Shown: positions 7,701 to 63,800 of the stretch, piece by piece | How positions within the stretch are numbered: position 1 is the first letter of the stretch | Layout: every line of letters begins with the position of its first letter | Source: Plumapathes pennacea | Lineage: Eukaryota > Cnidaria > Anthozoa > Antipatharia > Myriopathidae | Assembly: GCA_964036295.1 (NCBI GenBank) | Contig: OZ038464.1 | Location: 18,088,443 to 18,152,442, forward strand | Direction of reading: 5' to 3' | Length of the DNA stretch: 64,000 nucleotides | The notes under the pieces: model-generated | Seen by the model: only the letters and a program-made list of their open reading frames with translations | Database searches by the model: none | Told to the model about the DNA's origin: nothing | Program-made: the position numbers and the translations under genes

Positions 7701-10142
7701 GTTGGGAGAGTCTGTATTTTGAACTTGGGAGTGAAAGGGTTAAGCGTCAGTCTTGTGTATCAGGTAGAGGTCGTTAAGAGTGGCGATTCATGGCGAATGA
7801 GTTGGCGTGTGTCAGAGATATATACACTGTAAGTGGTGACGGTTACTCATTAACGAAGGGAACAGTTGAGCCTTGAGTATTACCTGTGCTTCCAACGGAC
7901 CTACTCGGCACGTTACAGTCATCATCATTTTTAATATCATATCATCATCGTTGACATCATCCATCTTCGTCATCATTATAATAACCACCATGGTCAGCTT
8001 GCGCATCTGACGTGTCCCATGTTTCATTTTGCTCGTAGATTTGTCCTTGTCGACCCGGATGCTCCACCAGAGACCCTGCCACGAGAGCGACTCCGTGTGC
8101 GAGTGTCGACTCACTGACCCTATCCACCACAGAGCACAGCCCGAGGAATTTCAGGAACGTATTAGTCTTTGGCAGAGAGCACACAGTGAGTACCTCTTGA
8201 TGCAGAATCTCCCTATTTGTTTAAATAGCAATTCTGTAAGTGACAATGAGAATTAATAGTTTGGTCAGGTTTGTTTGGGCAAATTATTTAGACGCCATTT
8301 TGTTCTCATATCTGTACACGAAATTTGGAAGGAAAAGGTTACGTTTAGTATTGTTTGGCGGAGAAAATTATGGATTTAGATTTAAAGACCACACACGAAG
8401 CTGCTTGTGTTTAGAGACGTTAAATCATATCGCGTGAAAGTGCAACTTTTGCAACAACATTGTTGACGTTTGAAGGGCAGTCCTTTAATTCTGACGTAAA
8501 AAAATCCGTAAAGCCTCGCATCCAATTCTTTCCATTGCAGGTCTTCCCCCGCAGTTCAAAGTTGACATAAACCAAAGTCTCGCAGTGTATTTCACATTCA
8601 AAACTGCGTTCTCGAACGTGATGGAGGTTCTGATGACAGCCATCAACTCCAATCCTTTTCCCCTCACGAACTTCGCGATGGATTTGAAAATTTCAACAGT
8701 AAGTAAACACTGCAGCTGAACAGCCTTGTAGCTTGTGGAACCTTTCTGACAGCATAACGTCGGGTTTCCTTGTTTGATCCGACGTCGTGCACGCACATGA
8801 AGTCAATCTGCACATCCACGCACGCACACGAAGTCGGCATGCACATTCACGCATGCACACGAACCCAACACGCTCATTCACGCACACGAAGTCAACATGC
8901 ATATACACACACACGTACGCGAAGGTAACAGGCCCACGAATTCACCATGCGCGTACACGAAGTCAACACGCACATCCACGTACGGGCACGAATATTTAAT
9001 ATGTACATCTGGGCACGCTCACGAAGCCAAAATTCGTTCGCATTTGCGCGAAGTCCCACACACATTTACGGGCACCTTACCATTGTTTTATTCTTTGCGT
9101 TTTCTGTTTGAAAAGTCTTACGCGTTTTTCGCAGCCTGTGCAGAAGGAACTGAAGCATGTTTCTGGTGAAGTGCTGTCGGCAAATGGAGGAATGGTCAAA
9201 CAAGTGATTAGGCTTTCTGCTCTGCAGAAGCTACAGGTCAGCGGTTTTTGTATTATTGCTCGTACTTTGTACTTCAGCTGGAGCCAATTCAATAAAACAT
9301 TTACAAGTGTATTTTACAAGTTGGACCATTATTTTTTCACACGTTAAAATGCACTTTAATCCAATACCATTTCCAAGTACTGTAGGTTGGTTGTGATCGT
9401 CCGGTTTAGAGTAGTCTCCAGAAAGACTGTTGTTGGTGATCAACAACAGTCTTTCTGGAGACTACTCTAACCCGGACGATCACAACCAACCTACTGTTCA
9501 CACTCCTGGGTTCAAACCATTTGCCATTTCCAAGTACTGTTACAGCTATTCATATGAGACATTCTCTGAAACATTTTGCGGACTTTCGTCAGATTAGAGT
9601 CCATTTAGTGGTCTTTGAATAATGGTCCAACTTGTAATATACATTTGTAAATGTTTATTGAATTGGCACCAGGTCTTGTGATTTTTGTTAGTTGCTTTGT
9701 CCCGTGTCTTGTACCTTTTACCTTGTCTGCTGATTTTTCTTTGCGTTAATTCATGTTAAACATGTCTTGTGACTATATGCTGAATTCGTTGTTGGTGGTG
9801 GCTTTAGATCTTTGCATGTCTTGTGTATAAGCGTGGTGTGTTATCTCAATGTTGTCGTCTTTTGTATTTAGTCTTTAGTCCATTAAAATACTTTTTTTGA
9901 TGCTTGGCTCGCGGTGTGGTGTTTTTCCAGTAAATTCTTGGCTTGTAACTTATTAACTTGTTGCTCGTTCCAAGGACCCTCTTGTGTCGAACTTGCTCGT
10001 TTACTACCGCGTGGACGACAACATATATGAGCCTCGGGCGAAAATCCGCCTTGGCTGTCCATTGGTCGCCTCAGTGTTCGTCACGTGGGACTGGTGGTTC
10101 ACGTGCCAAAGATCACCCGCGATCAAGTGCACGCAAGTCTAG
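1440..10142 (+). CDS. MALT1: MALT1-like paracaspase, 16 coding exons
   Basis: Exons: 1440-1752, 2584-2667, 2773-2883, 3415-3519, 4206-4274, 4906-4953, 5060-5098, 5372-5499, 5792-5861, 6250-6442, 7038-7109, 7197-7318, 8039-8185, 8541-8698, 9135-9236, 9975-10142. All junctions are GT-AG and phases agree throughout, giving 642 residues. Order: death domain (about 1-100), Pro/Ser-rich linker (about 105-255), caspase-like domain (about 257-500), C-terminal Ig-like region. The catalytic dyad is visible as YYAGHGY (His335) and IDSCR (Cys384); the 49-residue spacing equals human MALT1 (His415, Cys464). MALT1 is an arginine-directed protease and scaffold downstream of CARD proteins and BCL10 in NF-kB signalling (known family role). 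The two Ig domains that follow the death domain in vertebrate MALT1 are absent. The ATG lies 11 bases after a good acceptor (tttctttacag), so an untranslated first exon is likely upstream. Confidence 0.93.
2584..5098 (+). CDS. MALT1: MALT1-like exons 2-7: small symmetric linker exons
   Basis: Six short exons (84, 111, 105, 69, 48 and 39 nt) are all multiples of three with phase 1 at both ends. They encode a low-complexity linker rich in Pro, Ser, Asn and Gln, for example WHPPPRYHNTSPPPQYYQ. No Ig fold is recognisable where vertebrate MALT1 has two Ig domains. Because each exon is symmetric, any could be skipped without a frameshift, so alternative isoforms are plausible (inference). Confidence 0.8.
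5372..9236 (+). CDS. MALT1: MALT1-like exons 8-15: caspase-like domain and following region
   Basis: Exon 8 starts the p20-like fold (VALLIGNKEYQ). Exon 9 reads VVSLVNLTLSEMRIAV, close to the equivalent MALT1 strand and helix. Exon 10 carries both catalytic residues. Exon 10 joins exon 11 at 7038 to give CRITLPGSG, then GNNIFAYS; exon 12 continues CCSQQEAYEEPGQRNGLYA, matching the MALT1 segment around its ATCQG motif. Exon 13 has RLTDPI and exon 14 AFSNVMEVL, both in the MALT1 region just after the protease core. The start of exon 11 is fixed by phase 2 continuity. Confidence 0.9.
5882..6155. mobile_element. Mutator-like MITE, 274 bp, 9-bp TSD
   Basis: Long terminal inverted repeats of about 110 bp start TAGCC and end GGCTA; the arms contain the 'gcgccattttgtactgatgg' motif and its complement. 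The element is flanked on both sides by cacaaaacc (5873-5881 and 6156-6164), a perfect 9-bp duplication as expected for Mutator-like transposition. It sits in intron 9 of the paracaspase gene and is the same family as the element at 14947-16075. Confidence 0.85.
6588..6783. repeat. Inverted-repeat MITE in MALT1-like intron 10
   Basis: Arms 'gcgttcgattcaccgtattc' and its imperfect complement 'tagacccaatcgaacgcgct' flank about 130 bp. It is non-coding, and other copies were not recognised in this window. Confidence 0.6.
7531..7743. mobile_element. TTAA-flanked (piggyBac-type) MITE
   Basis: It begins TTAACCCTTTCACTCAC and ends GGGAGTGAAAGGGTTAA, with terminal inverted repeats and a TTAA duplication, the hallmark of piggyBac-type insertion. 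It lies in intron 12 of the MALT1-like gene and belongs to the most abundant repeat family in the window. Confidence 0.8.
8783..9060 (+). repeat. Degenerate ~30-bp minisatellite in MALT1-like intron 14
   Basis: About eight imperfect copies of a unit built on 'cacacgaagtcaacatgcac' followed by 'attcacgcacg'. The array lies between exons 14 and 15 and ends about 75 bp before the exon 15 acceptor. Confidence 0.7.
9278..9672. repeat. Inverted-repeat element with an internal 54-bp hairpin
   Basis: The outer arms (about 9278-9327 and 9623-9672) are complementary: gccaattcaataaaacattt against its reverse complement near the end. Inside, 9382-9435 and 9441-9494 form a second, almost perfect inverted repeat of 54 bp with a 5-base loop and one mismatch. 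The element is in MALT1-like intron 15, just after exon 15. Confidence 0.75.
9975..10142 (+). CDS. MALT1: MALT1-like terminal exon: Ig-like C-terminus and stop
   Basis: After the acceptor ttccaag, 55 codons in phase 0 end at TAG (10140-10142). The residues NLLVYYRVDDN and IRLGCPLVAS align with the last strands of the third Ig domain of MALT1 (the VGKPLIAK region). The protein stops shortly after, without the long C-terminal tail of vertebrate MALT1, which carries TRAF6-binding sites. No canonical poly-A signal was seen close downstream. Confidence 0.8.
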   Translation, partial: DPLVSNLLVYYRVDDNIYEPRAKIRLGCPLVASVFVTWDWWFTCQRSPAIKCTQV

Positions 10143-32127: not shown

Positions 32128-32167
32128 ATGAGGGTATCTATCACACTGCTGCTACTCTTCGCTTCAG
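32128..32167 (+). CDS. MAM gene exon 1: start and signal peptide
   Basis: ATG in a good context (cgccATGa) opens [13 protein letters not shown], a classical hydrophobic signal peptide, followed by gtaagtg. The exon ends in phase 1. Cleavage is likely in the AQKPN region at the start of exon 2. Confidence 0.85.
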
Positions 32168-34897
32168 GTAAGTGAGGAACACAAATGTACGGCAAAAATC
32201 AAGCTTTACAACTAAAATGTCGTGTTTATTTACACTATGTTGCTCTTAAAGCACGTGTGATCGCTGACGCCAGCCAGTCCTCTCGCCCCCTGGTACCGGC
32301 AACACCGCAAATTGAATTCGTGTAAAATTATTTTACGCGTTCTGTCTAATTCATTCTGACGTTCAATTAAGCTCTCATACATCTCCTTATGATTTGACCA
32401 AATTTCTGTGCTTCTTGATCAAAGAATGATTATTGAACGCTTCAGCAGCATCCAAATATTTTAAACCAATTTATCACGCGGTCTTTTTTTTTTTTGTCTC
32501 GATCGATCTCTGTAATGGCGTTTTTGTCGGATGTCAGATTGTGTTTCAGAAATAACCGGAAGGCGGTAGAGGCGTACAGAATATTGCCTGTGAGAAACTG
32601 TTTCTGTTTCTGTCATATGGCTGCCTCAGGTTCCGTTCGAGTTTGCGCGGGGTCATAGTGTCAGTGATCGGAAATTGCGTTTTTCTTGTCCGAGGCGCTC
32701 GTGACTGGCACGATAATATGATGAGATTACGGAACGAGTAAATCTCATTTAAGCTGATTTATTTCGATTATTTCTTTTCCACTAGATCCCTTGCAGGATG
32801 ACTAAGATAATTTTGCAAGCAAATCAAACAAAGCTAATACATGATATTGTTTTTGGGCGAATTTTTCCTCGTCTTCCATTTTGTATATCATACATGCAAG
32901 TAGAAATATTCTCGTTTATAGCTTTCTTTTGCGTATTTTCCTTCCCGGCTTTTAAAAAGTACAGGTACTCAATTTAAATCAATTAAATGTGATTCTTCAA
33001 ACAAAAAATAGATAAAAAGCCAACAGTAGCAATTAAAAACATCTCTACAATACGTCATTTTTCAGCGAACATTTTTCGCTTCCTTTTCCTTGCAGTAGTC
33101 GCAGCACAAAAACCAAACTGCGATTTTGAGAAGCCTGGATTGTGCAACTACATCCAAGACAAGAGTGATACATTTGATTGGACCTGGAACCGAGGAAGCA
33201 CGGGAAGTCGAGGGACTGGGCCCCTGACAGACCACGCAACGATTGGGCAGAAGAAAAGTACGTGAGATGATAAAATCTGTTATTGTCGCCTTTTTTGCCT
33301 TGCTTTTTTTTTTCGAGGTCGAAGGTTGAATTGGTAAGTAGCTCTATCTAATGATGTCTTCCTTTCAATATCCTGGAGATTAATGAGGCTGTGATGAAAT
33401 TCAGATGCAAAAATTTTAGAGTGCTGTTGCATATGGCATGGTCTGATGTTGGTCTGCAGTTTAAGGAGATATTTGTGTCTGATCTTTAGCTTTCTTGGGA
33501 AATTCCCTTGCCCAGATTTCTGATCAGATTGTAATAACAACATTTGCATAATGGTGCTGTCTTATGTTAATACTGTTATGATAAGAAAATTATATTTGTA
33601 TTTTTCCTGTTTTGTAAGTGTTTTTTTTTTCATTCTCAAAGCAGCCGAAATATACTTTTAATCTGGAATCAATGAATTAATCTTGTATTGTAATTTGTAT
33701 TATATGCTGCCCAATGTAGGAATTTGCTAAACATTGAGGAATTTAGGAAGTTGTCTTGAAATAGTTTTAGACTTTCTAAAACACAGGACTAAAACGTCTT
33801 CCCAGCTAAAGTTAATAGTTAATATCATCAGCTATTATAATCAGAAAGTGCAGGTAATATTGACATCATGAAGAGAATATATAATTTATTTTAATAATAT
33901 ATTGGCAGTTTTGTTTGATGAATCTTGTGGTTCACTTGACAGTGTTTGCTTTCAGTACCGTTTGACTGTATGTTCTATAGAACTATTGAAAACAAAAGCC
34001 AAACAACTCAAAAAGTTAATTAAAAAATAATTATCTATACATAGCAATTATTTCTCATGGAAGAACTGGGTACAATATCATCAATTTTTATAACCAGGAT
34101 GTGAGAGTAAATATTGATGTCATAATCTTGTTTTGTTTAATTTGCTCTTGCTCTAAATCTTCTGGCAGCTGCGCATGCACTGTTCATTTAACTTACAGAC
34201 TTGTACGTGCATGCCTTTATGTTAATATTATGTGTGTATAAAGTAAAGCCTTTGATCTTTTAATCTCTGAAGGATGACCTTACAAAATAACAATCTACCT
34301 AATTAACAATTTGCAATAAATGTTATTGTACAATCTTTCACAATGCTCTTTTTGGGAAGTGTGTGAGTTCTTTAAAGTCCTTAATATTGGGTTTAATAGT
34401 GAAGGTTTAGAGGGAAGACTATGTCAACGGCTTGTGTCCCCACCCAAGGACGGAGAGTAGTTCAGACAAGACCATAGTCCTTAGATACCCAAGCCAATAA
34501 TATTGAACTCGGACTGCACTGGTAAAAGACCAGTGTGCTAACTGCTTGGCCACCTGAACAAAGGGTTGACAGCTTGGATAGTCTTTTCTGCTTTGTATTT
34601 GTTTATTGTTTTGATGATTAATATCAGAGGTGCTGTATGTGAGCTCAATCCCAAATTTCTTTGCACTTTACAGCATGGACTATAGCTGGCACTGGGAACA
34701 ATGCTGCCTGTGTGTTTCCATTTACCTACAGAGGAAGAAAATACAGCACTTGTACTATTACAGGCCACACTCAGCTATGGTGCTCTACAACAAACAATTA
34801 CCCTACAGATAGGAAATGGGGCAACTGTATTCCCAATGGTATGTACATCTTTATTCATAAACAATTCATCGCCCCTGCAACATTTTTATTATTATGA

Positions 34898-34954
<57 letters not shown>

Positions 34955-37900
34955 GATTATGATTATAATTATCATTCTTTTATTTCTATTTAGACTTATT
35001 GCTCATCTATTATGCCCAATTAGTGTAGTATTCAACACTTTTATAAAGCTACTCATTCATTCAGCAGTCTCCACTTGATGATACCTTTTACCAAGTAGTT
35101 GCAATGCAGATCAAGTAGGAACATTAGCTTGACACACACTCTTTTGTACCCTGAGCAAAAAAGCAAACAAACAAACAAACAAAAGCAAAAAAAAAAAAAG
35201 AATTACATGTGCTCCACTCAAATGTAAGAGTACAATGACTCTTGGCTGCAGATCAAGTAGGAACATTAGCTTGACACACACTCTTTTGTACCCTGAGCAA
35301 AAAAAAAAAAAAACAAACAAACAAACAAAAGCAAAAAAAAAAAAAGAATTACATGCACTCCACTCAAATGTAAGAGTACAATGACTCTTGGCTGCAGATC
35401 ATTTATAAATTATGTTATATAATACTGCATGTCTGTACATATGCACGCTTCTCACACTTCAAATAATTTACAATTACTACGCACTGCTTCACATTTCATG
35501 CTTTAGCTTAAAGGACTTTTTTTGATTGATTATATCTTTTCATTATGCTCTACTTAGCTTAAGATAAATAGCCATTGTTCTTTAAATTAATTTTTCACAG
35601 GAGCATACTACCTTGGGTGCTTCAAGGACAAGTTACAACGTGCCATTCCAAATTTGCTGGCAAGACTTACGGGAAATAATAAACTTGACCGTTGTGGGAA
35701 GCTTGCTACCCAGAAAGGTTTCAGTGCCTTTGCATTTCAGAACCAGGATGAGTGTTGGTCTGGTCCCAAGGCACACATCACATACAATAAATATGGTCCA
35801 CAGAGCACATGTCAAAAAGGACTTGGAGGCCCATGGGGTAATGATGTGTTCTTGAACCCTGGTAAGTTGAGTATATATAAGACATAAAAAGGTGTGTTTA
35901 TTAGAATGTGACTGCCTAATATTACCAGTAGTTACCAACAAAAAAGGCATTATGATTTAAACTCTTTCACTTCCAAGATTATAATGCAGACTCTCTCAAC
36001 CATTCAAGAAGAAATGTATGAGTGATGTTGTAAGAATTAATAGTTCAATCAGCTTTCATTTGCACTATCAAATGCCAATTTCTCCATATCGTATGATTTA
36101 TCTCTGGGGATAGAGACTGAAAGAGGAAATAATATTCCCTATTCAAATGGGGTGTATTAGATATGTGCAGATTACTTTGTCCTTTTTACAGAGGATATGG
36201 CCACTCAACTTTGACAGGGACTTACATGCAGTAGTTAACCCTTAATAATAATAATAATAATAATTTTATTTAGGCAGACGGTCAGCATCACTGTAAGGTG
36301 CTTTTCAGCTGAGCTCTGCATACAATAATACTAGAAATACGATAATTGCATATACCCCCTCACTCTGCCATTGATGGGACTTTTACTTTTGGTAACTCCC
36401 AATAAGAGTAGCCTTTGTTTTACCGAAATGTTGACTCAATCTTTTCTTCGAACTCAAGTGCTACACGCAAAGGAAGGAGAAAAAGAATGGTGTGTGTTAT
36501 ACTTTTGCGTTGAAAAAAGAATCGATTGCGTGACGAAGTACGTATTTCCCACGGTCGGCACGTCAAATTAATTCATACAGTCTGCCAAGCACGTTCTCGA
36601 AATTTAATACTCAAAGTTTGAAGTTGGTCGGCCGTCGTAGTACGGGAAAAAAGGAACACTGATTTTCTAATTTCGAATTCATAGGCAGTACAATTAAATA
36701 GGCTTCCTGTGCGATTTGTTTTTACTACTGCATGCACCAGACTCAGGCATGCATATTTAATAGGCTCGAATTGTTTTGTATTTGAACCCACTCAAAACAG
36801 CAAAATTTCTCCCAGAATCAAAGCAAAACTTGAACAGTTTACTTCAAATTATACACGGGCTTCAGACCCAGTAATACTTCTAAGGGCTTGTGAACGATTT
36901 TTGCTGCAATCGCCACGTGTCAGATTACAGAAAAATAAGACATCTGACTAAATTATTCAAGACTCCAAGTTCCAATTGCTCTGAGCAAATACGGTAGCCG
37001 AAACTGGCGACAGAAGCGTAGTAAAACAATACTTCGAGGGAAAATGATCAGCATACAGATTTTAATACATTCTTGAAGTGATCGAGTTACAAAATATATA
37101 TTTGTCACGGTGATTGTTCGATTTCCACTGACTAACCTTTGTTGCTTGTCCTTTCTAAATAAGTATCTGAGTTTAACACAAAACGGCGTCTGAAGCTCCC
37201 GATTTGCTTTCAAGCACTGTTCCCTTTGCGGAGTTGTCTGTGTTTCCCGCTTCTGTTCATGTCGCTTTTGGTCGGCATTCATGCGCTGTTGTCTTAATTT
37301 GCGGAGTCTTCTCTTCGGCCCGCTTTTTCTCCTGAAGTTTCCGATTTGCGTTCAAGCGCTGTTCTCTTTGCGGAGTTGTCTGCATTACCCGTTTCTGTTC
37401 ATGTCGCTTTCGATCGGCATTCATGCGCTGTTGTTCGCTCGTTTCACGATTTCGCCTTGCTCATGCCTGTTCCCTTCTCATTTGAAGACGAGCTTCGCGA
37501 GACTGTTGTGTTTCAAGTTTTTCAGTTAAGTTTTCCATTTTCGTGAACGCAGCTACAATATATTGTTGCTTCGTTCAAATCTCATCTCTAAGTTATTCCG
37601 AGTAAAACAACAGGGCACACGTGATCGATCCGGCCTTTGTTATTGGTTAGCGGGGTAACCGCGCCTAAAGTCGTACGACAGACTGACTGACTGACTGACA
37701 GACAACGTTAAATTTCGAGATGACGACGGGCTTGGAGTCCCCAAGTAGGCGGTATAATATTGCTGCATTAGTGTCGTGAGTATTTCCCTCACTTCGTTCG
37801 GGGATTAGAAGAAAAAAATGACTAAATTACAAAAACTGACTAAATTACAATAAAAGGCTAACTAAATTACAAATAATTACATTTATAATTGCAATAAATC

Positions 37901-40900
37901 TAGTTAAATTACAATAAAAAGCTAGGATTAATATATAAGCTAAAATCTAAGCTATTATATAAGAAAGTACAGCTTTAGAAAGTTCTAATTCAGAACTTCA
38001 TTATGTAGGACCTTATGAAACTGAGATAGGTTCTCAATCTCTCTTAACTCTATTGGGAGGGCGTTCCAGTCCTTAACAAAAATACATCCTGATCTTAAAA
38101 GACCCTTAGTGGTTTCACTCTCGTGATCAACTTCAATTTTCTCTTTTCAGTCTCCCACCAGAGATATATCATACAGTATAGAGAATTTGCTACTTGATAC
38201 CTTGTACAAATGACAGCTGATTAAAACATAAATTCTCTTTTCTCACTCATACATTTCTTTATTTTAGGGTTGGGAGAATTTGTATTTTGAGCTCGGGAGT
38301 GAAAGGGTTAAGAAAGCAACTGATAGATTAATCCTGAGCCCTTGATGCTTTCATGCAGCATATGATACTGAGTGTGCTGTGGGATCTTCAAAGATTTCAG
38401 CATTTTCTAGTGTTCTCCAAGATGCCTTTTGCCTCTGTTTCAAATCACAGCCTACTAGTGCAAAGTCTTCACTTTCATGTTCATTTTCATGCAAATACAT
38501 TTTTATAAGAGATAGTACTGTTCTTTTTTGTTAATTTTTGTAAAGGGTTTTACACATAAGCCTTGATTTGAAAGGCAACACTGCCATGTTGTTATTTGAC
38601 ATAAAAACATTGGCTTAGTCATATGGTTCTTCCTCAGGCTGGTACATCTACATTGAAGCATCAGGTAGGAAGCCAGGAGATGTGGCACGGATCTCAAGTC
38701 CACCAATTACGTTGGCTTCAAATTGCTTAAAGTTCTGGTACCACATGTATGGACCACACATCAACAGTCTTAGTGTTTACATCAATGAGAGTTCCTCGCT
38801 AGGTTTTCCTGTCTGGCAAAAAAATGGAACACAGGGGAATTCCTGGCAACAAGCTGTTGTCCCTGTTCAAAGCTCCTCATCCTACTCTGTAAGTAAAAGA
38901 TGTTTATAAATAATTTAAAAACAAAATTCTCTCAACTATTCAAGAGGAACAAACTTGACTAATGTAGTGAGAATTAATGGCTTGATCCATTTTCATCTGA
39001 GCTAGCTATTAACAGGGGTGCATCCAGATTGGTTTTTACTGGTTTATGGAAACCTGTCAAATTTTTTTTGGTATTCAATTAGGCTCAGCTTCTGGAGAGG
39101 TCAATCTCAATTCTTTTTCTTTGAGAACATGTCCCCAAATTGATACTGATACTGTTCTGGTGAGAAACTGAAGGAGTAAACTGACGTTGATCACTTTTAG
39201 GCCGAATTACTTTTACCCTTTTGATGTATTTTAGGTTGTGTTTGAAGCAACAGCAGGCGCAAGCTACAAAGGAGACATATCTATTGATGACATCACTTTG
39301 GATGCAGGAGCTTGCCCAGCCTCAGGTCTGTTGACAACATCACTCCTACATTTTCCCAGTAGAGGACCAACTCTTCCACATATGTGACGAAATATTGTCT
39401 CACCCCTTCTGTAAACTGACACCGGTCTTTCACTTTGAGAGCTATATTTAAGACTTTTTTTCATAATACCAGTGTTAATCCAACTCATTTTTAGTAAAAG
39501 TAGTCTTCACTTCCAACCCCAGAGAGCCCTACCTTTTAACCAATATTGGGACCCAAGATACCCGGGCCGAATTTCCCATCTGAGAAATTGTTGTGGTAGG
39601 CATATGGTAATGATTTTAATAACTGCCTGGGCACTTATATAATTTTGGGACCTCAAGGGAGGGTACTTAGTAATAGAGACAGGGTGAATTTGAGATGGGG
39701 TAATTATTTTAAAAAAGCACTCAATGCACAGGGTGCTTATTAGAGACGGGGCACTTGGAATCATTATGGTATATGCTTGTTTGGTGGCTTCTGGTCATTA
39801 AGCGAAATTGTTGGTCTTATTGTTACAGTTGGTGTTTGTGACTTTGAGAAAGATGACTGTGGATTTGTGCAAGATAAATCTGACAACTTTGACTGGAAAC
39901 GGATGAAAGGGTCAACACCCACACCAGGAACCGGCCCACAGGTTGACCACACTCTTGGATCTAGGAAAGGTAAGAGTGTTGTGTTGGGTTCTGAAGAGGA
40001 TGCATGCATGATCAGTAGTGTGTACCAATTTTGTCTGTGCCATAGCTTGTGCAAAGAAAGCATATTATTTTTATTGTAAGCTGAATGAATCTCAATTTTC
40101 AAATGAGTGTATGGTATATTGTACAGTCGAACCTCCTATAAGGCCCCTGCATAGAGCAGCCATGTTTGTTTGTCATGCCATAAGTACTCCTTTGTACAAA
40201 GTAACTCTGTCCCCACAATCTGACCATTGTAGGTCAACTGAAACCACAGGATAAAATACTGCTAGTACATGAGACTAGGAGATACAGTACATGTATTGTG
40301 ATCTTTTACTTTGGTGAACATACTAGTTTTTGCTTCTTTTCTTTTACCCTTTCACTCCCAAGCTCAAAATACAGATTCTTCCAACCTTGGAAGAAAACTT
40401 CTGAGTGATGTAGTGAGAATTAATAGTTCAATCAGATTTCATGTGGGCAAGTTATTAAAAGCCAAGCTCTCCTTACTGTATGATATAGTTCTAGTGAAAA
40501 ACTGAAGGAGAAAATTGAAGTTGGTCACTCTTGGGAGTGAAAGAGTTAAGGTACTGTGAAGCTTGTACACCCGCTAGATCTGTGCCACCCTAAACTTGTG
40601 TGTCAGCTTTTGGTGCAGGTTATAAATTAAAGTGTTAACAATTTTAATTTAACTATGCAGGATATTACATGTATACAGAAGTGTCTTCCCAGAGCAATGG
40701 TGATAAAGCTCGCATGGAAAAGAGTTACCTCAAAACCTCGTCTCAGGGCCGATGCCTACAGTTTTGGTACATGATGTATGGTTCAAACCTGGGCAGCTTG
40801 AATGTTTACCAGAAAGTTGGAAGTAATTTACAACCAATTTGGAACATCACAGGAGACCAAGGTGTTGGAAGGACCTGGCTCAAAGCGCTTGTAACACTTA

Positions 40901-43900: not shown

Positions 43901-45791
43901 CCAAAGTAATTTGCGTTTGGTCTTGCGTTTGGTTTTACTTTCCAATCAGCAGTGCGAGTACACGCCATCGCTTGCGTGAGAAGTGTTTGGTTTTGGTTTT
44001 GGTTCTGTTCCTGATTGGCTGAGCATGCTGACAAACTCGTGTGGACCAATCCGAAAGCGAAGCAAACGCAAAACCAAAGCAATCACACAATTACTTTCGA
44101 CAGTCATCCGAAAACCGCTCTATGTAAAAACATGCTGCTTAGTTGGAGATTTCATTTTTATTGTATTAAGTGGCAACCCTGATAGATACAATTAAATACG
44201 TTTTGTTTTTCAGTAAACGCTGGGATAAACTGCAACTTTGAACAAAGTCTGTGCAAGTCGTGGACACAGGACACTACAGATGTCTTTGATTGGACACGCA
44301 AAGCAGGACGTACAAGTTCATTTGGCACTGGCCCTTCTGTGGATCACACATTAGGAACTGGTAAATATGCTTTCAGTTTTAACCCTTTTACTCCTGAGCT
44401 CATAATACAAATTCTCCCAACTATTCAAGAAGAAAATGTATGAGTGACGTTGTGAGAATTAAAAGCTTAATCAGCTTTAAGTACCGTTTGGTTTCTCAGT
44501 CAAATTACTATTAGTGAAACCCCTCGTAAGCGACCATCTCTCGCATGCGACCGCAACCACCCTATTTGGATTGGACTGCATATTATCGTTAAAGTTATGT
44601 AAACTGACTACAGTGAAATTTTGTTACAGGCAATGGACATTACATCTACATTGAGACCTCCTCACCACGAAAACTCAACGATAACGCCCGTTTGATCAGT
44701 TCCGCGTTACCCGCTACAACAGGATCTACTGGAAAGTGTCTCACTTTCTGGTACCACATGTATGGGGCCGATATCAACAGGCTTAACGTTTATGTCAAGA
44801 CGGGTCCACACAGCACTTTGCTGTGGAGCAAACGGGGCACTCAGGGCGACAAGTGGATAGAGGCCAAGGCAACGGTGACCAGTAGAAGTCGCTTCCAGGT
44901 ACAAATTCTCACAAACATTCAAGACGAAAATGTATGAGTGTTGTAGTGAGAATTGATAGGTCAATCAGCTTTCATCTAAGTAAACTGCGAAGCGGCAAAT
45001 TCTCAATTCTTTAGTCCAGTATCCTGTAGGACATTCCGGGCTACCAGACTTTCACTGTCCGGGCTTGTAGATTTTCCCGACAACTTGCTCTGTATGAATT
45101 ACAGTTGAAGCTTGCTATTTCGGGACATTAAAAAAGTTCGAAATAGCGCGGTTTCGAAATAACCAAGCCAATAATCTAAGATGATTCAGCTTGAAATAAC
45201 GGGGACTTCGAATTAACCGAGTTCGAAATAGCGGGGACTTTGAATTAACCGAGTTCGAAATAGCGGGGAATTCGAATTAACCGAGTTCGAAATAACGGGG
45301 ACTTCGAATTAACCGAGTTCGAAATAGCGGGGACTTCGAATTAACCGAGTTCGAAATAACGGGGAATTCGAATTAACCGAGTTCGAAATAACGGGGACTT
45401 CGAATTAACCGAGTTCGAAATAACGGGGACTTCGAATTAACCGAGTTCGAAATAGCGGGGACTTCGAATTAACCGAGTTCGAAATAGCGGGGACTTCGAA
45501 TTAACCGAGTTCTAAATAACGGGGACTTCGAATTAACCGAGTTCGAAATAGCGGGGTTCGACTGTCTGTGGACTTGTGATTCATTGCTACAGCTTGCGCT
45601 TGGGTGAACAAGAAATGTTATTTGTTCACTTTCAGATTGTTCTTGAAGGAATCAATGGCAAGAGCTACCGTGGTGACATTGCCATTGATGACATTTCCTT
45701 AACAGATGGAGCCTGCAAGATATCATCCAGTATGTGCTGATTTTTTACTCTTACTAAGCAGAAGCGGGTGTTTTTTTAAGGGGAGAGAGCA

Positions 45792-45822
<31 letters not shown>

Positions 45823-48800
45823 CATCCCAAGGTTAATCATCATTAATAGAAATAATACAACAGTTGTTAATTAAAATGATAGTTTATAATAATTAGAAAC
45901 AACAATAGGTCGTATAATAAACGATTGATGGCACTTTGTCTGATAGGCTCCTGTAAGTTTGAGGAAAGCCACATCTGTAAGTATACTCAGGATACAACGG
46001 ATGATTTCAACTGGCGGCGAGGGAGCGGTTCCACCATTACTGCAGGAACAGGACCAACGGCAGATCACACGCTAGGAACGCCATCTGGTGAGTAGTGACA
46101 GCTGTTGCGATAGAGCGCTTTTCGGATGACTGTCGAAAACCAAAACCAAAGCAATCACAGAGCCAATCAGTGAGGCGGGCAAAAACACGTCGAACCAAAT
46201 TGAAGTTAGAGCTAAACCAAACCAAAACCAAGCAATTGCGATTTGTTTTACTAACCAATCAGCAGTGTTAGAACACGACATTGCCACTTTCTTTCTTGCG
46301 GGATAACATCGCAATCAGGTTTTACTTTTGCTCTTGATTGGTCAAGAGTGTTGCTAAACTTGTTAGGACCAATCGGAAAGTGAAGCAAACGCAAAACCAA
46401 AGAAATCACACGATTACTTTTGACAGTCGTGTGCTAAAACAGCTCTATGCAAGGAATTGCGATAATTTCTGTACATGGAAAGATTGTCGTGCCTGTCTAT
46501 TATTCCACCTGATATAAACAGCATGGTCGGTATGTGGTCAGTATGCGGTCGGAAAGTAGTCGGTTTGTGGTCGGTATGCGGTCGGAAAGTAGTCGGTTTG
46601 TGGTCGGTATGCGGTCGGAAAGTAGTAGGTATGTGGTCGGTATGCGGTCGAAAAGTAATCGGTTTGTGGTCGGTACCGTTGTTGGTCTTGGCGTGCTATG
46701 TTTTGGTTCTCGTTCTTGAGGCTAAATAACGGTCGCTTTTGTTTGGGTTTTCAGGTTTTTACATGTTCATCGATGCGTCAACCAACAGACAGGGTAAAAA
46801 AGCACGATTATTGAGCCCCCAGGAGCCGAAAACAAGATCCAAGTGTTTAGAATTCTGGTACCACATGTATGGCGCCACAACGGGGACGCTGAGCATTTAT
46901 AAGAAGACTGCGGCCGGTGTGGGAGCGCGCATTTGGACGGAGAGTGGTGACCAGGGAGACGAATGGCTGATTGCTAAAGTTCCTGTGTGGAGTCCGGTCA
47001 GGCCCTTCCGGTTGTCCTTTGAGGGTATGGTCGGTTCTGGAGGAAAAGGAGACATTGCCATTGATGACGTCAAGTTCATTGATGGAAACTGCCCTCCACC
47101 AGGTCATTTTTCTATTTATTTTCTGCTTTATTGCTTACAAGTGATTTTGTCAATCGTCCTCAAATTTACTCACCAAATCTGTTAAAACCAGTTAAAGTTG
47201 GTTACTTTTGCTTATGATTTGTATAGTTGGTTCTTGATTGACAGAAGCATACAGTCAACTCTTAAGCGGACACCTCTCTAAGGCGGAATCAGCATGCAGA
47301 TTTGGGCCTTTCTGATTTTCACTTGTTTCTCTGTAACTGAACTCTTTCTAAGACGGACACTTCTCTAAGGAGGACACAAGATCTAGTCCCAAAGGTGTCC
47401 GCCTTAGAGAGAGTTGAATGGATTCTCTTCTACAAAAGGAGGTATTAGCCGTGCAGTGTCCCATAATGGAACATTATTTTTCTGGCAGGTGATTGTACAT
47501 TTGAGACCGGCTTGTGCACATGGCGAAACACGAGAAAGGAGGACGACTTTGATTGGCTGCAAGGAAAAGGCAAGACTCTTTCACAAAGTACCGGCCCCTC
47601 CACCGACCACAGCACGGGCACCGTCAATGGTACCTACATGTACATAGAGACTTCAGCACCTCAACGACAAGGCGATAAAGCTCGACTTCTGAGCCAGTTC
47701 TTCGACTCGGTTCCAGCACAGGGCAGGTGTATCCAGTTCTGGTACCACATGTTTGGGTCGCACATAGGAACACTTAATGTCCTGTGGAAATACGGCCCTG
47801 GAAACTCATCTGAGACACTGCTGTGGACACTCAGTGGACAGCAAGGCAGTACGTGGCAGTTCGGCAAAGTGTCTGTCCCAAGGAAACAAGTGAAGCATTA
47901 CATCGTGTTTGAAGGCATCCGGGGCAGTAGTTACAAAGGTGATATTGCTATTGATGACATACAGTTCACCACAGGGGCGTGCTCCATCGTACCGGCCAAT
48001 GCAAACCCGATTCCCTCCAGCACCGTCGCGCCGACCACCAAGTTTACTCAGCCGCCAACTATACCGAAGTCTCAGTACAACTGCGATTTTGAGAAAGACA
48101 AGTGTTCCTACGTTGATGAGTCAATCACAGACGTTTTCAACTGGACGAGGAACCAGGGACACACCGGATCAGGCGGCACAGGTGATTGAAAAAAGACTTT
48201 TGCAATAGGTGTCATATGTGTAATAGTTAGTTGCTTTTAACCCTTTCACTCCCAAGATCAAAATGCAGATTCTCCTAGCTTTTAAAGAGGAAAGTGTATG
48301 AGTGATGTAGTGAGAATTGATAGTTCAATCTGCTGTAATTTGAGCAAAGTAAGTATCAGAAAACGTCTTTTTTTGTGTTTTTCCAAAATAGCTTTTTTAC
48401 ACATATTTGCCCTGTTTTAGCAGCATTTTATTTTTTAAGGGAAAAAAGCATTGGTTTTAGCGGACAATCCTGGGAAGTTTCTTAAAATGGATGAATCTCA
48501 CTAAGTACAATCTTATGTCCGCTAAATTCTGCAAGCCTTGGCTAGGAAAATCAGGCTGCAGAAATTCTGCAGCCTCAGGCTGGAACATAGGCCGCAGAAA
48601 TTCTGCAGCCTCAGGCTGGAACACAGACTGCAGAAATTCTGCAGCCTCAGGCTGGAATATATGATGAAATATGATGAAATCGCAATATACTACATTAAAC
48701 AGGATTCAGAGCAACTGCAGAATGCCCTGCCACTTCAGGAATTTTTATATATTCTTTTGTCTTATTAATATATTCTTTTAACCCTTTCACTCCCAAGAAA

Positions 48801-51800
48801 AGCAAAGTTCTCCTTACTGTATGAAAACATTATTGGTGAGAAATTGAAAGAGAAAATTGAAGTTTATCACTCTTGGGAGTGAAAGGGTTAATGTATCAGA
48901 GTTGGGAGGTGTGTGAGTGTGTGAATGTGCGTTGGTGTGTAGAGTTGGAGTGGAGTGGGGTGGGGGAGAGGGGGGGGGGGGGGGGGTTCGATGGTCATTT
49001 CACCCAGAATCTACAAGAACTTGAAATAATCTTTACTTTTTTACTGTCTCATATAGTAGCGATGCTGAAGGACTTTTTGAAATTTTAATAAAGTTAATGA
49101 TTCATTCATTCGTTCATTCATTCACAGGTCCCGGTCAAGATCACACCAAACTGCAGGGCGTGGTGGGGCCAAAGGGTCCCGGTTCTCTTCAGCAGACACA
49201 AAGTGGGAGTTGTATTCACGTGTACTTGGGTGGTTTCAGGAAACCCAGTCCTGGAACAACCCTTGTCTATTACAGAGGATGTGGGCAAGAGCGTTTGGAG
49301 TTTGTCATAACCTCGGACGGATATTGGCAAATGACGAAATTCAAGACTTGCCTTCAGAAGAGAGGGGGCGGGGGACAGAATGCGGATGACGTTGTGTTCG
49401 GGAGTTCCTGTTCTGAGAAGTGGCAGCTGACGGCAAAGGGTTCAATCCAGCACGTTGCTACCAAGAAATGTGTCATGCCCTTGAAGAATTACGTCAACCC
49501 TCCTGATAATACCAAGCTGGTCCTGTCTACCACGTGCGACAGTTCAAATCAGTTGTTTCGCTGGCAACCAAGTAAGTCCATGAACTTGACGTCACTTCCG
49601 GTGGTCAGCGTTAATCGCCATTACAATCTAACTTGGTCTAAATTAGTCAACTCAGAACGTTTTCCTGGTTTGTCCACAAACTAAATAATAATATTGTTTA
49701 TATCAGTCCACAACATGTCTCACAGTTCTTAATTGCTAAAACTTCTCAAACAACTGAAGCACAGCAGTTGTAATGTTGTGTTTTAATTCTTTTCAGCAAT
49801 GGGCTACTATCTCTTCATTGAAGCGTCTTTCCCACGAAAACCCAACGACACGGCAAGGATTGTTTCTCCAACAGTGAACAGCCCATCCACGGCCAAGTGC
49901 CTGTCGTTCTGGTTTCACATGTATGGAGCCCACATAGGACAACTTAACGTCTATATGAAAGTTGGAAACAGCTTCGGCAACGCAATCTGGTCTCGCTTTG
50001 GAACCCACGGTGACCGTTGGATCAACGCTTTAGTTCCGCTGACCAACAAGAGCCCGTACAGAATTGTGTTCGAGGGTATTCGAGGCACGAACTACGCTGG
50101 TGACATAGCTATTGACGACATCTCTCTGAGTAATGGCAGGTGTCCAGCAACTGTAAACTGTGACTTTGAGAATACTTTTTCTAAGTTCTGTGGTTGGAAG
50201 AATCTAAACTCGGACAGAACCGACTGGCGATATGGACAAGGCAAGACTTCTTCCGTCAACACTGGGCCTTCCAATGATCACACTTTTGGAGACAGCAGAG
50301 GTAAAGTTGCTTAAACGTATTGACAGACTTTGATGGTGTACATGTACTGTTTAGTGCAAGTATTATTATTGACCATTTCAGTCCTGAGCGCTCCACATTT
50401 CTTTTTTGGCCTCCAAGAGGAAAGAAACACCGCAGAAATACGTTCTTGACGTCACTTCCGTTGGTCAGCGTTCGTCTCCATGGCTATCTAGCTTCTCATA
50501 ATTCGAGTTAAAGTTTCACATCGTGTGCAAGCCTCGTTTTTTTTTTTGCACAACCTGCGTTATAGAAAATGCCTTGAACTAACTTACAGCTGAGTATCGA
50601 GTCCTAGTGTTAAGTTTTTTGGTCCTCAGTGAGGTTTTACGATCGATCGATTGATTTAGAACGAACTACAAAGTCTGCACCTGAATCCACGGTTTTGTGC
50701 AATAACCGCTGATCAAAAGCAAAGTGACCGCACGACCGAAAAACGTATTTCCGCGGTGTCGGAAAGAGAAGATCTAGTCACTTCCACAAGTAAAGGTTAA
50801 GCATTTATTTCCCTCTTTTCTGAGGCAAACTTCTCCTTTCAATACAGTCAACTGCACAAAGTTCAGTAATAGAGAAAATTCTTGGTGATCCCCGGCTTAA
50901 GTTCAAGCTAGTCAGACTATTAATTCTCGTAATAGAACTTAAACATTTTGTTGAGGGCAGATTTGGAGAATTTAATTTTCGATACGTGGGGATTAACCAC
51001 TGCTTTGTTTTTCGCTTTCAAGGGCATTACCTGTACCTCGAGACATCATTCATTCCCAGTGGCTCAAACGCCCGTCTGCAGAGCACCGTCATCTCCCCGC
51101 AGAACGGCAAGTGCCTTCGTTTCTGGTACCACATGTACGGTAGCAGCATCGGCCAGTTGAATGTCTACCTATGGCAGTCTGGACAATCTACTCCAGGTTT
51201 CGCCGTGTGGACGCGGACGAAGGGACAGGGGAACCAGTGGCTCGTCTCTCAAGTTTCGATTACCAAATTTGTACATGTTACGGTAAGTTGGCTTTTCAAT
51301 TTTTTCACTCGACATTCTGATTCTCCCCGACCACTCAAGAATTGAAAGGGGGAGCGATGTTTATAAGTTTTTACCCGAACAAGTTTTTAGTCTTCAAGCT
51401 GGATAATACAGTGGAACCTGCCTGAGCGACCACCTCTCGTAAGCGATTTGAAGTCTTTGTAAACTCTTGAGGAAGGGCTGCACTCCCAGGAGGGCCAGCT
51501 TTAGCGGGATTAGGTTACGGTCAAATCTTCGCCTGGTTGTTTGCCTCTGGGGAGAATTGCATGTAAAGGACCCTTCACTCCCCTTCCATGTAAACGGCCC
51601 CTTAGATGCTTAAAAACTGTGAAGACCACCCAAACATCAATTGGTTAAGTGGTGTCTTGATATCCTGCAGGTCGTGTTTGAGGCTGTACGTGGCACAAGT
51701 TTCCAAGGTGACATTGCCATTGATGACGTCACACTCATGGACGGCGCATGTCCAAGTCCTGGTTACTGCGACTTTGAAAAGTTTGATACTTGCACCTGGA

Positions 51801-60800: not shown

Positions 60801-63800
60801 GTTTGACTGGAAACGACAGAGTGGACAGACTGCGAGTGTTAACACGGGACCAAAGGTGGATCACACCACCAATTCTGCAGCAGGTTTGACAGCAAGTTCT
60901 TTGTCCACCTCTTTGTTTTTCTGTGCGGTTGATTAATTAACTAGTCAGCTGTTTTTTGTGCTTGACCTTTCAAGTCCTGACGTTTTACAGAGCATTTTTT
61001 GTAAGGTTTCGCTCACATCCAAGCGGCCACGTTACCGACCACGTTACTGATCGACCACATAACCGACTACGTGCCGACCATATACCGATCACATTCCGAC
61101 AACATTACCGACAACATACCGAGCACGTTACCGACCGCATACCGACCAGCTCACTTGTTTACAGTTACCGAGAACGTTTGGAAAAGCATTTCCAGGCCTT
61201 AAAGTGTTGTCTTGTCCCTTGTTTTGTTTTTCTCAAGGCAACTACATGTACATCGAGACGTCACTTCCAAGAAAACGAGGTGACCGTGCGCGACTCGAAA
61301 GCACAGTTTTCCCGCCAACTACTGGGAAGGGAAGGTGCATGCAGTTCTGGTATCACATGAAAGGTGCGCATATTGGAGTGCTGAACTTGTACATGAAGAT
61401 TGCGGGCCAGTCGGAGACCATCCTGTGGAGTCTGGGAACTGACTTGGGTGACAAATGGCAGCAGGCTCAATTACCAGTTGTCAGCGGAGGAAGGAGTTAC
61501 CAGGTAGGGAGCAGTTCTGGAAGCTATATTTTCCCTTGGATATCTGACCGTGTCGACTGCCATGTTTGTTTTTATTGTCCAGAAATTACAATAAAACATT
61601 AACTCCGTTATTACACTGCTATTAGAACATACTGATCGAGAGCTTTCACTTGATTGGTTTCATTTGACAGTTCAGGAGTTGAAAGTGAACACTGTTATCA
61701 GAATGTACTCATTGAGAGCTTTCATTTGAGTGGTTACACTTTTGGGTTTTATTTGACAGTTCAGGAGTTGGAAGTGAACACTGCTATTAGAATGTACTCA
61801 TTGAGAGCTTTTATTTGAGTAGTCACACTTTTGGGTTTCATTTGACAGTTCAGGAGTTGGAAGTGAACACTACTATTAGAATGTACTCATTGAGAGCTTT
61901 CATTTGAGTGGTCACACCTTCGGGTTTTATTTGACAGTTCAGGAGTTGGAAGTGAACACTGCTATTAGAATGTACTCATTGAGAGCTTTCATTTGAGTAG
62001 TCACACTTTTGGATTTCATTTGACAGTTCAGGAGTTGGAAGTGAACACTGCTATTAGAATGTACTCATTGAGAGCTTTCATTTGAGTGGCCGGTCATACC
62101 CTTGGGTTTCATTCGATCATTCAGGAATTAGAAGTTTTTTTTTTAGGTGGCGGTAAAAAGGTCTCTGATTTTGATGTTGTTATTTAGATCATATTTGAAG
62201 GCATCCGGGGCACAGACTACCAGGGTGATATTGCTATTGATGACATCACGTTCACGGACACAGTTGGCAGCTGTCCGCTCCGCCCTACCCAACCCTCTGC
62301 AGTGCCATTTGGCTGTAATTTTGAGACCGGCTTATGCAGTTGGACCCAGGCCACCAACGACAGGTTCGACTGGACCAGGCACCAGGGCGCTACAGGAAGC
62401 ATTCAAACTGGGCCGAACACTGATCACACTTCGGGGACTGGTAAGCAATTTTTCGATCTTCCTTAGGACGGAATTCTTCTTTACTATCTATAAACGTCAC
62501 ATCTGGAGGAAAGTTGTTTTGATAGTTCTTGACAGAATTCCCGATACTTGCTCTGTTTAAGCCTTTCACTCTCAAGCTCAAAACACAGATTCTCTCAACC
62601 TTATAATAAGAAACTATGAGTTATGTAGCGAGAATTGCTAGTTTAATCAATTTTCATGTGAGAAACTGTTAATGAATGAAAGGGTTAAAATGTGGTCTCA
62701 CAGGAATTAGATAAATACATTATAGAATGATGACGGGAAAAGAAGCAATGACAATAAAAGGAGATGATATGATTCGTTGTGTTGAATAAACTTAAAAGAT
62801 AACGATAGCCAACTGCTTTGTGTAAAACTATGTACGAGGCTCGTACAGAGATCCCAAAGGCGAGAATCATTGCAATGTTTTTCGTGTCGTAGGCAAAGGT
62901 TGGTACATCTACATAGAGACCTCGAGTCCACGGCAACCGAACGACACCGCGCGAGTTCTCAGCCCAGTCATCAAGGGAAACAAGACCAAAGTTATCCGCT
63001 GCCTGTCGTTCTGGTACCACATGTACGGACCCCACGTAAACCGGTTAAACCTGTATGTTATGAGAGGGGGCAAGCTGGGCCCTGTACAGTGGACGAAGAC
63101 AGGAACCCAAGGAAACCGGTGGTTATATGCGGAGTACACGCTGATTAATGCTGATGACGTACAGGTAGAGACCTGGCTGTAGTCTTCGGAAAAGAAAGAA
63201 AAACCGTTCAAGTATATATTTTCTGAAAGCTTAATGACAGTAGATCACGACATAGCGTTACTCCACATTATAAATTCCCCCAGGTTGTCCGCTTATTACA
63301 GGCAGAGTTTACATTATCTTACTGGGAAGTAGATTTTTGGGACTTTGACTGTAGTAAAAGTTGACATCAAATCTACTGGACCTAGGAGCATATTTTGATT
63401 ATGATGAAGTTCTTGATTGTGTAGACGTGGGTTCAGTGTTGACTTATTTGCATGTGGTAGGTTGTCTTCGAGGGAATGCGAGGTCCCAGTTTCCGTGGTG
63501 ATATCGGTCTAGACGACATCGGACTGAGGGATGGCAGTTGCCCGACTTCAGGTAAATTGTGTCTTCATGTATGTCAGTGTGATACCAGCTCTTAAGAGGA
63601 CTAGAATAACTATGTCGGTGTGGTGAGAAAAACGCTGGTGTATCAACTGAAAGTTGATCGAGGTACTGGAACGCCGTAAGAGTAACAGTAGCTGACTTTT
63701 CGAGCGTCAGCCCTTCGTCAGAGCGAATTCTACATGTATGTCAGTCTGGTTTACATGAGCTGACTACCTTTTGTCTTTTATCTGATTTTCTTCCATTAAT

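Follow-up and report, generated by a model that had tools for sequence, protein, structure and literature searches.

Relation to Known MAM Proteins

The closest described system to the locus studied here is a coral skeletal protein, recorded in Acropora digitifera (aug_v2a.09968+09969), A. millepora (B3EWZ5/B3EWZ6), and S. pistillata (XP_022794736.1), and listed as the 'fibronectin II' core skeletal organic matrix protein (SOMP) (PMC8382919). In A. digitifera, one gene carries a long MAM repeat together with LDLr, fibronectin, EGF, and trefoil domains; its product occurs in the skeleton, and likely homologues are present in Nematostella (PMC4890752). Fragments of 5145 and 7311 residues are described from Acropora millepora, with lectin domains mentioned (PMC4043741). 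The fibronectin type II (FN2) domain of this core skeletal matrix protein was reported in scleractinians and as absent from corallimorpharians (PMC8382919, PMC4890752). We analyzed a 64,000-nucleotide stretch of Plumapathes pennacea DNA (the window, C3:18088443-18152442 in a 290-Mb assembly), to which the next 60 kb were added for the scan of its MAM array. The subject is MAM1, the first MAM domain of this array, which appears from sequence to be split by an FN2 exon and a WSC-like exon; such an arrangement is called a nest below.

The P. pennacea gene and the coral protein were compared by architecture, not by sequence. The P. pennacea gene has a long MAM array with LDLa, FN2, and P-type trefoil modules, together with an EGF-like piece of low score, a hydrophobic segment, and a tail, in line with what is described for the coral protein (PMC4890752, PMC8382919). 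In P. pennacea, we observed MAM, FN2, LDLa (nine of the nine pieces tested exceeded the Pfam cut-off), and the trefoil (48.8 bits); one EGF-like piece scored below its Pfam cut-offs, and the hydrophobic segment was recognized by eye. The gene architecture fits the accounts of the coral skeletal matrix protein. In their available parts, those accounts do not mention WSC, FN2 inside MAM, or the ricin-like module that we observed in MAM7.

The gelatinases MMP-2 and MMP-9 have FN2 repeats inserted in their catalytic domain. They resemble MAM1 in that FN2 sits within a host domain, where it would act as a side arm for binding, and differ in the metalloprotease host, the three FN2, and the lack of WSC. 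Endotubin and Diet1 have far fewer MAM units than the present gene. Like this gene, both combine tandem MAM and LDLa in one protein (PMC4890752). The solved MAM domains of SR-C (8yt7), enteropeptidase (8ziy), neuropilin-1 (5l73), MDGA1 (5oj2), and RPTP mu (2c9a) belong to the same sequence family as MAM1. FN2 or WSC nested in MAM was not found in the available parts of the literature, including PMC4043741, PMC8382919, PMC7115838, PMC4890752, PMC9570262, PMC12419799, and PMC8001218, though supplementary domain figures (PMC8382919 S9, PMC4890752 S12) and UniProt records may show such nesting. The protein and its FN2 are known already; these sources gave no instance of the MAM1 placement, the WSC-like partner, the lectin-like nest in MAM7, or the phase rule.

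FN2 and WSC-like Modules inside MAM1

Judged by profile evidence, the FN2 and WSC-like modules are nested within one MAM domain. With the two exons left out, MAM1 gave a single Pfam MAM (PF00629) match over profile positions 1-158 of 158, with 144.1 bits and an E value of 4.3e-42 (cut-off 26.4). With both exons in place, MAM was matched in two stretches with a total of 131.3 bits, the larger beginning at profile position 41. The original prediction that skipping both exons leaves an intact MAM1 frame agrees with this full-length match. Searched by sequence against the PDB, the joined MAM1 gave 17 distinct matches, the best being MDGA1 and enteropeptidase, and the five alignments displayed, to MDGA1 and to four chains of enteropeptidase, cross the nest site without an insert.

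FN2 modules have four cysteines. The FN2 exon alone covered its full profile (1-42 of 42) with 64.7 bits and an E value of 7.3e-18 (cut-off 22.2), held 60.7 bits within the 323-residue protein, and has the four cysteines as well. Classical WSC has an eight-cysteine pattern, and the WSC exon holds four cysteines only. This exon alone reached 31.6 bits (E value 1.9e-7, positions 1-69 of 82; cut-off 27.8), and inside the 323-residue protein its 27.2 bits fell just below the cut-off. We call it WSC-like because of this in-protein score and the four cysteines. The genome profile search gave 64.2 bits for FN2 at C3:18123151 and 30.7 bits for WSC at C3:18124051. The domain matches of the nest are far beyond chance.

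The introns of the rebuilt 5′ end have GT-AG borders, and the joined exons give 323 codons without a stop, which bears out the coordinates at which MAM1 had been read as interrupted. The junctions from exon 1 to the MAM1 N-part, from the N-part to FN2, from FN2 to WSC, and from WSC to the MAM1 C-part are in phase 1, as had been claimed for those named earlier, and the junction from the C-part to the tail is in phase 0. The exons on either side of the junctions 33257-34674, 34838-35601, and 35861-38638 would, on this reading, be joined into one protein. Both nested exons are multiples of three in length and in phase 1 at both ends, the pattern of class 1-1 modules (Table 1).

MAM domains have four conserved cysteines, of which the first two pair and the last two pair. 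MAM1 has all four, divided 2, 1, and 1 among N-part, C-part, and tail, and the number in each nested module is even. Given the disulfide pairing of MAM, the MAM1 insert would fall between two cysteine pairs.

Table 1. Exons and domains of the nests and of the MAM array. Positions are those of the window unless a contig is given.
Feature	Position	Strand	Description
Exon 1	32128-32167	+	Start codon and signal-peptide-like run (judged by eye); phase 1 out
MAM1 N-part exon	33096-33257	+	Phase 1-1; 2 Cys; Pfam MAM 1 to ~40 by inference
Nested FN2 exon	34674-34838	+	165 nt; phase 1-1; 4 Cys; PF00040
Nested WSC-like exon	35601-35861	+	261 nt; phase 1-1; 4 Cys; PF01822
MAM1 C-part exon	38638-38888	+	Phase 1 in, phase 0 out; 1 Cys
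MAM1 tail exon	39235-39325	+	Phase 0 in, phase 1 out; last MAM Cys (1)
MAM2 to MAM16	39837-63544	+	Own-unit profile scan, Pfam MAM; array continues past the window to 114095
MAM6 (intron-free)	47494-47985	+	Unit used for the structure model
MAM7 N-part	48082-48181	+	Terminal part of the MAM6-containing exon; phase 1 out after GSGGT
MAM7 nest exon	49128-49571	+	Loop PGQDHT fused to ricin-B-lectin-like module; 444 nt; phase 1-1
MAM7 C-part and tail	49797-50146	+	Resumes in phase 1
C1 nest, MAM N-part	C1:4833048-4832920	-	Phase 1 at junctions, from letters
C1 nest, two FN2	C1:4831697-4831536, 4830559-4830398	-	Phase 1 at junctions, from letters
C1 nest, MAM C-part	C1:4829750-4829494	-	Phase 1 at junctions, from letters

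The N/C Intron as a Probable Insertion Site

The array has 45 adjacent pairs of MAM N-part and C-part. Over these pairs, MAM1 and MAM7 included, the intron between N-part and C-part (N/C intron) is in phase 1 in 36 and in phase 0 in one, and eight pairs are intron-free. The intron between C-part and tail is in phase 0 in 28 pairs and in phase 1 in seven, with two undecided and eight intron-free. As the FN2 and WSC-like exons are multiples of three and of class 1-1, the N/C intron would be a regular site in MAM that accepts such exons without a frameshift. Entry through an ancestral phase-1 MAM intron, as first proposed, fits 36 of the 37 intron-bearing N/C sites of the gene. As a general rule, exon shuffling in metazoans has mainly involved symmetrical modules of class 1-1 (PMC8001218).

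The position of the site in the fold was taken from AlphaFold2 models of MAM6, built on a 36-row alignment of the gene's own units. The best of the five had a predicted local distance difference test score (pLDDT) of 86.6 and a predicted template-modelling score (pTM) of 0.85, and its fold matched the solved MAM domains 8yt7 (best, template-modelling score 0.85), 8ziy, 5l73, and 2c9a. It showed strands at residues 24-27 and 49-54 and a coil from residue 28; the insertion site is residue 48, directly ahead of strand 49-54, and the N/C intron precedes the strand YIYIE. According to this model, which is of MAM6 and not of the nested MAM1, an insert at the N/C site need not disrupt the MAM sandwich. 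Because the site follows a long coil and each nested module holds an even number of cysteines, the sandwich could close with the modules at its side.

Second and Third Nests

In MAM7, a module resembling ricin-type lectins occupies a similar place. It matched PF00652 over profile positions 3-126 of 126 with 27.3 bits (E value 4.6e-6), below the cut-off of 29. Eight PDB matches were obtained at E values up to 1 (best 9.8e-7), mostly named lectins, of which six span only about 30 residues. We use the name ricin-lectin-like because the PF00652 cut-off was missed and the structure model was unusable. The Pfam score of MAM7 was 142.4 bits for the insert-free form, which is an artificial cut within an exon, vs. 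132.4 bits in two stretches with the insert.

The third nest was observed in a gene on C1, where two FN2 exons (FN2-a and FN2-b, 162 nt each, class 1-1) lie inside a MAM domain. Its Pfam MAM score was 123.3 bits insert-free and 108.6 bits in two stretches. The larger MAM stretch begins at profile position 41, 40, and 39 in the three nests, and in all of them MAM rejoins into one stretch without the insert. The original prediction regarded domain insertion as rare; in that form this was not supported, as insertion is reported in 20% of multidomain proteins (PMC13114784) and the genome has two further nests at, or adjacent to, this MAM site.

When the array was scanned for exons with phase 1 at both ends (77 rows, some of them overlapping alternatives), domain-like exons, judged by eye, turned up in only two of the 37 intron-bearing N/C gaps, those of MAM1 and MAM7, the scan being blind to exons with fewer than two cysteines, weak sites, or other phases. 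For the genome, three MAM nests are a floor, counted over the stretches examined.

Origin of the Nest

The best reading of the MAM1 nest is exon shuffling, in which class 1-1 modules entered a phase-1 intron within MAM; we give it a probability of about 0.8. The phase-1 N/C intron of MAM1 would have taken in the FN2 and WSC-like exons, and the MAM sandwich could close with the nested modules hanging off its side. The MAM array would then form a long extracellular stalk with the nested modules as side arms, which, in the extracellular or skeletal matrix, could bind a matrix protein (FN2) or a glycan (WSC-like, ricin-like). In several proteins, collagen or gelatin is the ligand of FN2 modules; WSC modules are regarded as glycan-binding, and ricin-type trefoils recognize sugars of the galactose type. 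A stalk with binding side arms is the working mode that we favour, with chances slightly under even.

Several observations weigh against exon shuffling into the N/C intron. The intron phases were chosen by splice-site scoring, not from reads, and with seven of the 37 C-part/tail introns assigned to phase 1, slots other than the N/C intron are conceivable. The MAM1 N-part donor is the weakest of the 35 N/C donors ranked, and the MAM N-part donor of the C1 nest is also weak, its neighbours scoring equal or one higher and not all being in phase. Three of the five MAM6 models had pLDDT values between 70.6 and 72.7 (86.6, 85.6, 72.7, 72.5, and 70.6 for the set). The ricin-like module lies below its Pfam cut-off, and its structure model (pLDDT 53.4, 3-row alignment) was not used. 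In MAM7, PGQDHT shares an exon with the lectin-like module, and the N-part intron is about 12 residues upstream of the usual N/C position; MAM7 would therefore not have received its module by simple insertion of a single exon at the N/C intron. Finally, the hosts of the nests are not clearly unrelated by sequence. MAM16 (55.2%) and MAM7 (53.6%) rank first and second in identity to MAM1, and a single clade of seven members (support 0.88) includes both MAM1 and the C1 host, which are 41.8% identical.

That clade was obtained with FastTree from 43 MAM domains, 41 from this gene and two from C1. The three nest hosts are not sisters, and MAM7 stands well apart from the other two in the tree. The lectin-like nest therefore seems to be of separate origin, and the two FN2 nests may represent one event or two. 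A single ancestral FN2-in-MAM insertion, later duplicated, could have given both the C1 nest with two FN2 and the MAM1 nest with FN2 and WSC. Apart from the shared clade, the two nests have an identical site, an identical phase, and FN2 as the first module. However, MAM1 and the C1 host are not sisters within the clade and its other five members are nest-free, with low inner supports of 0.12 to 0.61. The window FN2 had 51 genome matches including itself; C1 FN2-a ranked 11th of the other 50 with 50% identity, and C1 FN2-b was absent among the FN2 matches listed. We regard a common origin of the two FN2 nests as possible and clearly the less probable outcome. Among the matches listed, MAM1 alone has a WSC-like exon after an FN2 exon; elsewhere, the closest FN2-WSC pairs have spacings of about 13.5 kb (C9) and 18.5 kb (C1). 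Genome matches, the query included, numbered 108 for the window WSC and six for the ricin-like module.

The FN2 and WSC exons could also be alternatively spliced cassettes, with transcripts skipping both making a plain MAM1. The skipped form would be the full MAM scored above, and the low rank of the MAM1 N-part donor suits skipping. The two exons are symmetrical and divisible by three in length, a type of module that lends itself to skipping (PMC8001218). Against this, the donors of FN2 and WSC outscore 21 and 34 of the 35 N/C introns, respectively. The acceptors of FN2, WSC, and the MAM1 C-part outscore 10, 3, and 4 of the 35, which does not separate inclusion from skipping. The ranking was made with 35 of the array's 37 N/C introns, leaving out the ones at 95914 and 105463, and its splice-site scores neither show nor exclude skipping. 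We consider cassette splicing unlikely.

In a third explanation, the MAM1 N-part is a leftover. Unequal crossing-over would have placed it before an FN2-WSC unit followed by a headless MAM C-part, and the nest would have arisen by recombination or deletion. The array is rich in MAM N-part exons that recombination could join, but the MAM1 C-part continues from profile position 41 so that the joined parts run unbroken over the profile, and the two further nests split and rejoin likewise, which makes this origin improbable. A reading in which the FN2 and WSC exons are part of a different transcript or no longer used, with the MAM1 N-part never joining the C-part, is very hard to credit: the intron ahead of the C-part is 2.8 kb and repeat-rich, yet the two exons have open frames, GT-AG sites, and agreeing phases, the scan with the gene's own profile detected no MAM N-part from 33257 to the MAM1 C-part, and published descriptions of the matching coral genes include FN2 in their product (PMC8382919, PMC4890752).

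Exon shuffling into the N/C intron can be taken one step further. The phase-1 intron by the MAM coil might be a standing anthozoan insertion slot, used repeatedly and perhaps three times independently (FN2 and WSC, lectin-like, and FN2 with FN2) to attach binding modules to the side of MAM stalks. The FN2 gain reported to separate skeleton-building corals from corallimorpharians in the core skeletal protein would then be one such event inside MAM1 and not an added bead. This extension is tentative, and we lean against it.

Host Gene

The original prediction was silent on the giant MAM/LDLa gene of coral skeletal-matrix type that holds these exons. By order and strand, the whole array would be one gene, and the MAM1 nest is, on its sequence, the 5′ end of this giant gene with at least 45 MAM units. 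Scanning with a hidden Markov model (HMM) of the gene's own units yielded 46 matches to the N-part, 49 to the C-part, and 45 to the tail on the + strand between 33119 and 114095, counts in which some MAM domains are matched twice. The profile search of the assembly gave at least 153 MAM matches.

The second half of the array has 12 LDLa-like pieces. The P-type trefoil (PF00088) lies between two MAM units at array positions 77008-77133. Near the 3′ end (array 115803-117316, C3:18204245-18205758), a hydrophobic segment and the NPxY-like motifs NPVY and NPLY were noted by eye in unjoined open frames. NPxY-like motifs bind endocytic adaptors in other receptors.

Other Loci and Repeats

Further WSC and FN2 matches were considered as nests and rejected. 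The WSC matches at C11:3231383, C1:4811586, and C9:7016797 had no recognized flanking MAM N-part and C-part in the stretches scanned. The same was true of the FN2 at C9:15063129 (by eye and MAM scan) and of the FN2 pair at C10:2347898/2348932, for which only 4.5 kb were covered. The Pfam WSC match at C3:19114676 (C3:19.1 Mb), missed by a single-sequence scan, is located past the tail of the final MAM detected there and so is not nested in it. WSC-like matches in four C2 stretches had no MAM N-part or C-part alongside.

Large mosaic genes on C11, C1, and C9 hold WSC, FN2, and MAM C-parts, several of the latter without a recognized N-part; such C-parts could be headless MAMs or further nests. 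On C11, a very weak N-part-like match (E value 0.01) is followed by an F5/8 type C unit and a MAM C-part, and on C1 an N-part-like match (E value 0.34) is followed by a pentraxin-like stretch and a MAM C-part. Pfam found no MAM in these two N-part-like pieces, and neither locus was counted as a nest, although either may be one. The F5/8 type C units on C11 and C1 score over the Pfam cut-off, and the pentraxin-like stretches are weak in Pfam. Clusters of WSC-like matches related to the nested WSC were observed at C11:5.67-5.72 Mb, C11:6.77 Mb, C7:14.1 Mb, and C1:10.63 Mb.

An interspersed repeat end, AACCCTTTCACTCCCAAG, had 19 matches in the window with up to three mismatches, vs. 0.08 expected (for example at 7724, 35960, 38292, 48239, 48872, and 55660). 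Several copies form facing pairs, and the pair 35960/38292 brackets most of the intron between WSC and the MAM1 C-part. Intronic tandem repeats lie at 34882-34984, 35105-35401, 37190-37434, 45193-45556, 48524-48661, and 61656-62089; of these, a duplication of 142-146 bases falls between FN2 and WSC, and others are a 36-base array, in the intron upstream of the MAM7 nest exon, and an 89-base array. Rfam gave no window matches at gathering scores.

Significance

Shuffling of domains is one proposed origin of skeletal proteins in corals (PMC4890752). The MAM1 nest is a precise candidate for such an event, with the intron, the phase, and the loop identified. Domain counts that expect whole MAM domains may split nested MAMs, and this FN2 is best studied as a component of MAM1. 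Exon shuffling here would have used a reusable slot within a domain instead of a domain boundary. As the slot recurs, the timing of each module's entry, and of the FN2 gain relative to calcification, can be asked across corals, corallimorphs, and anemones.

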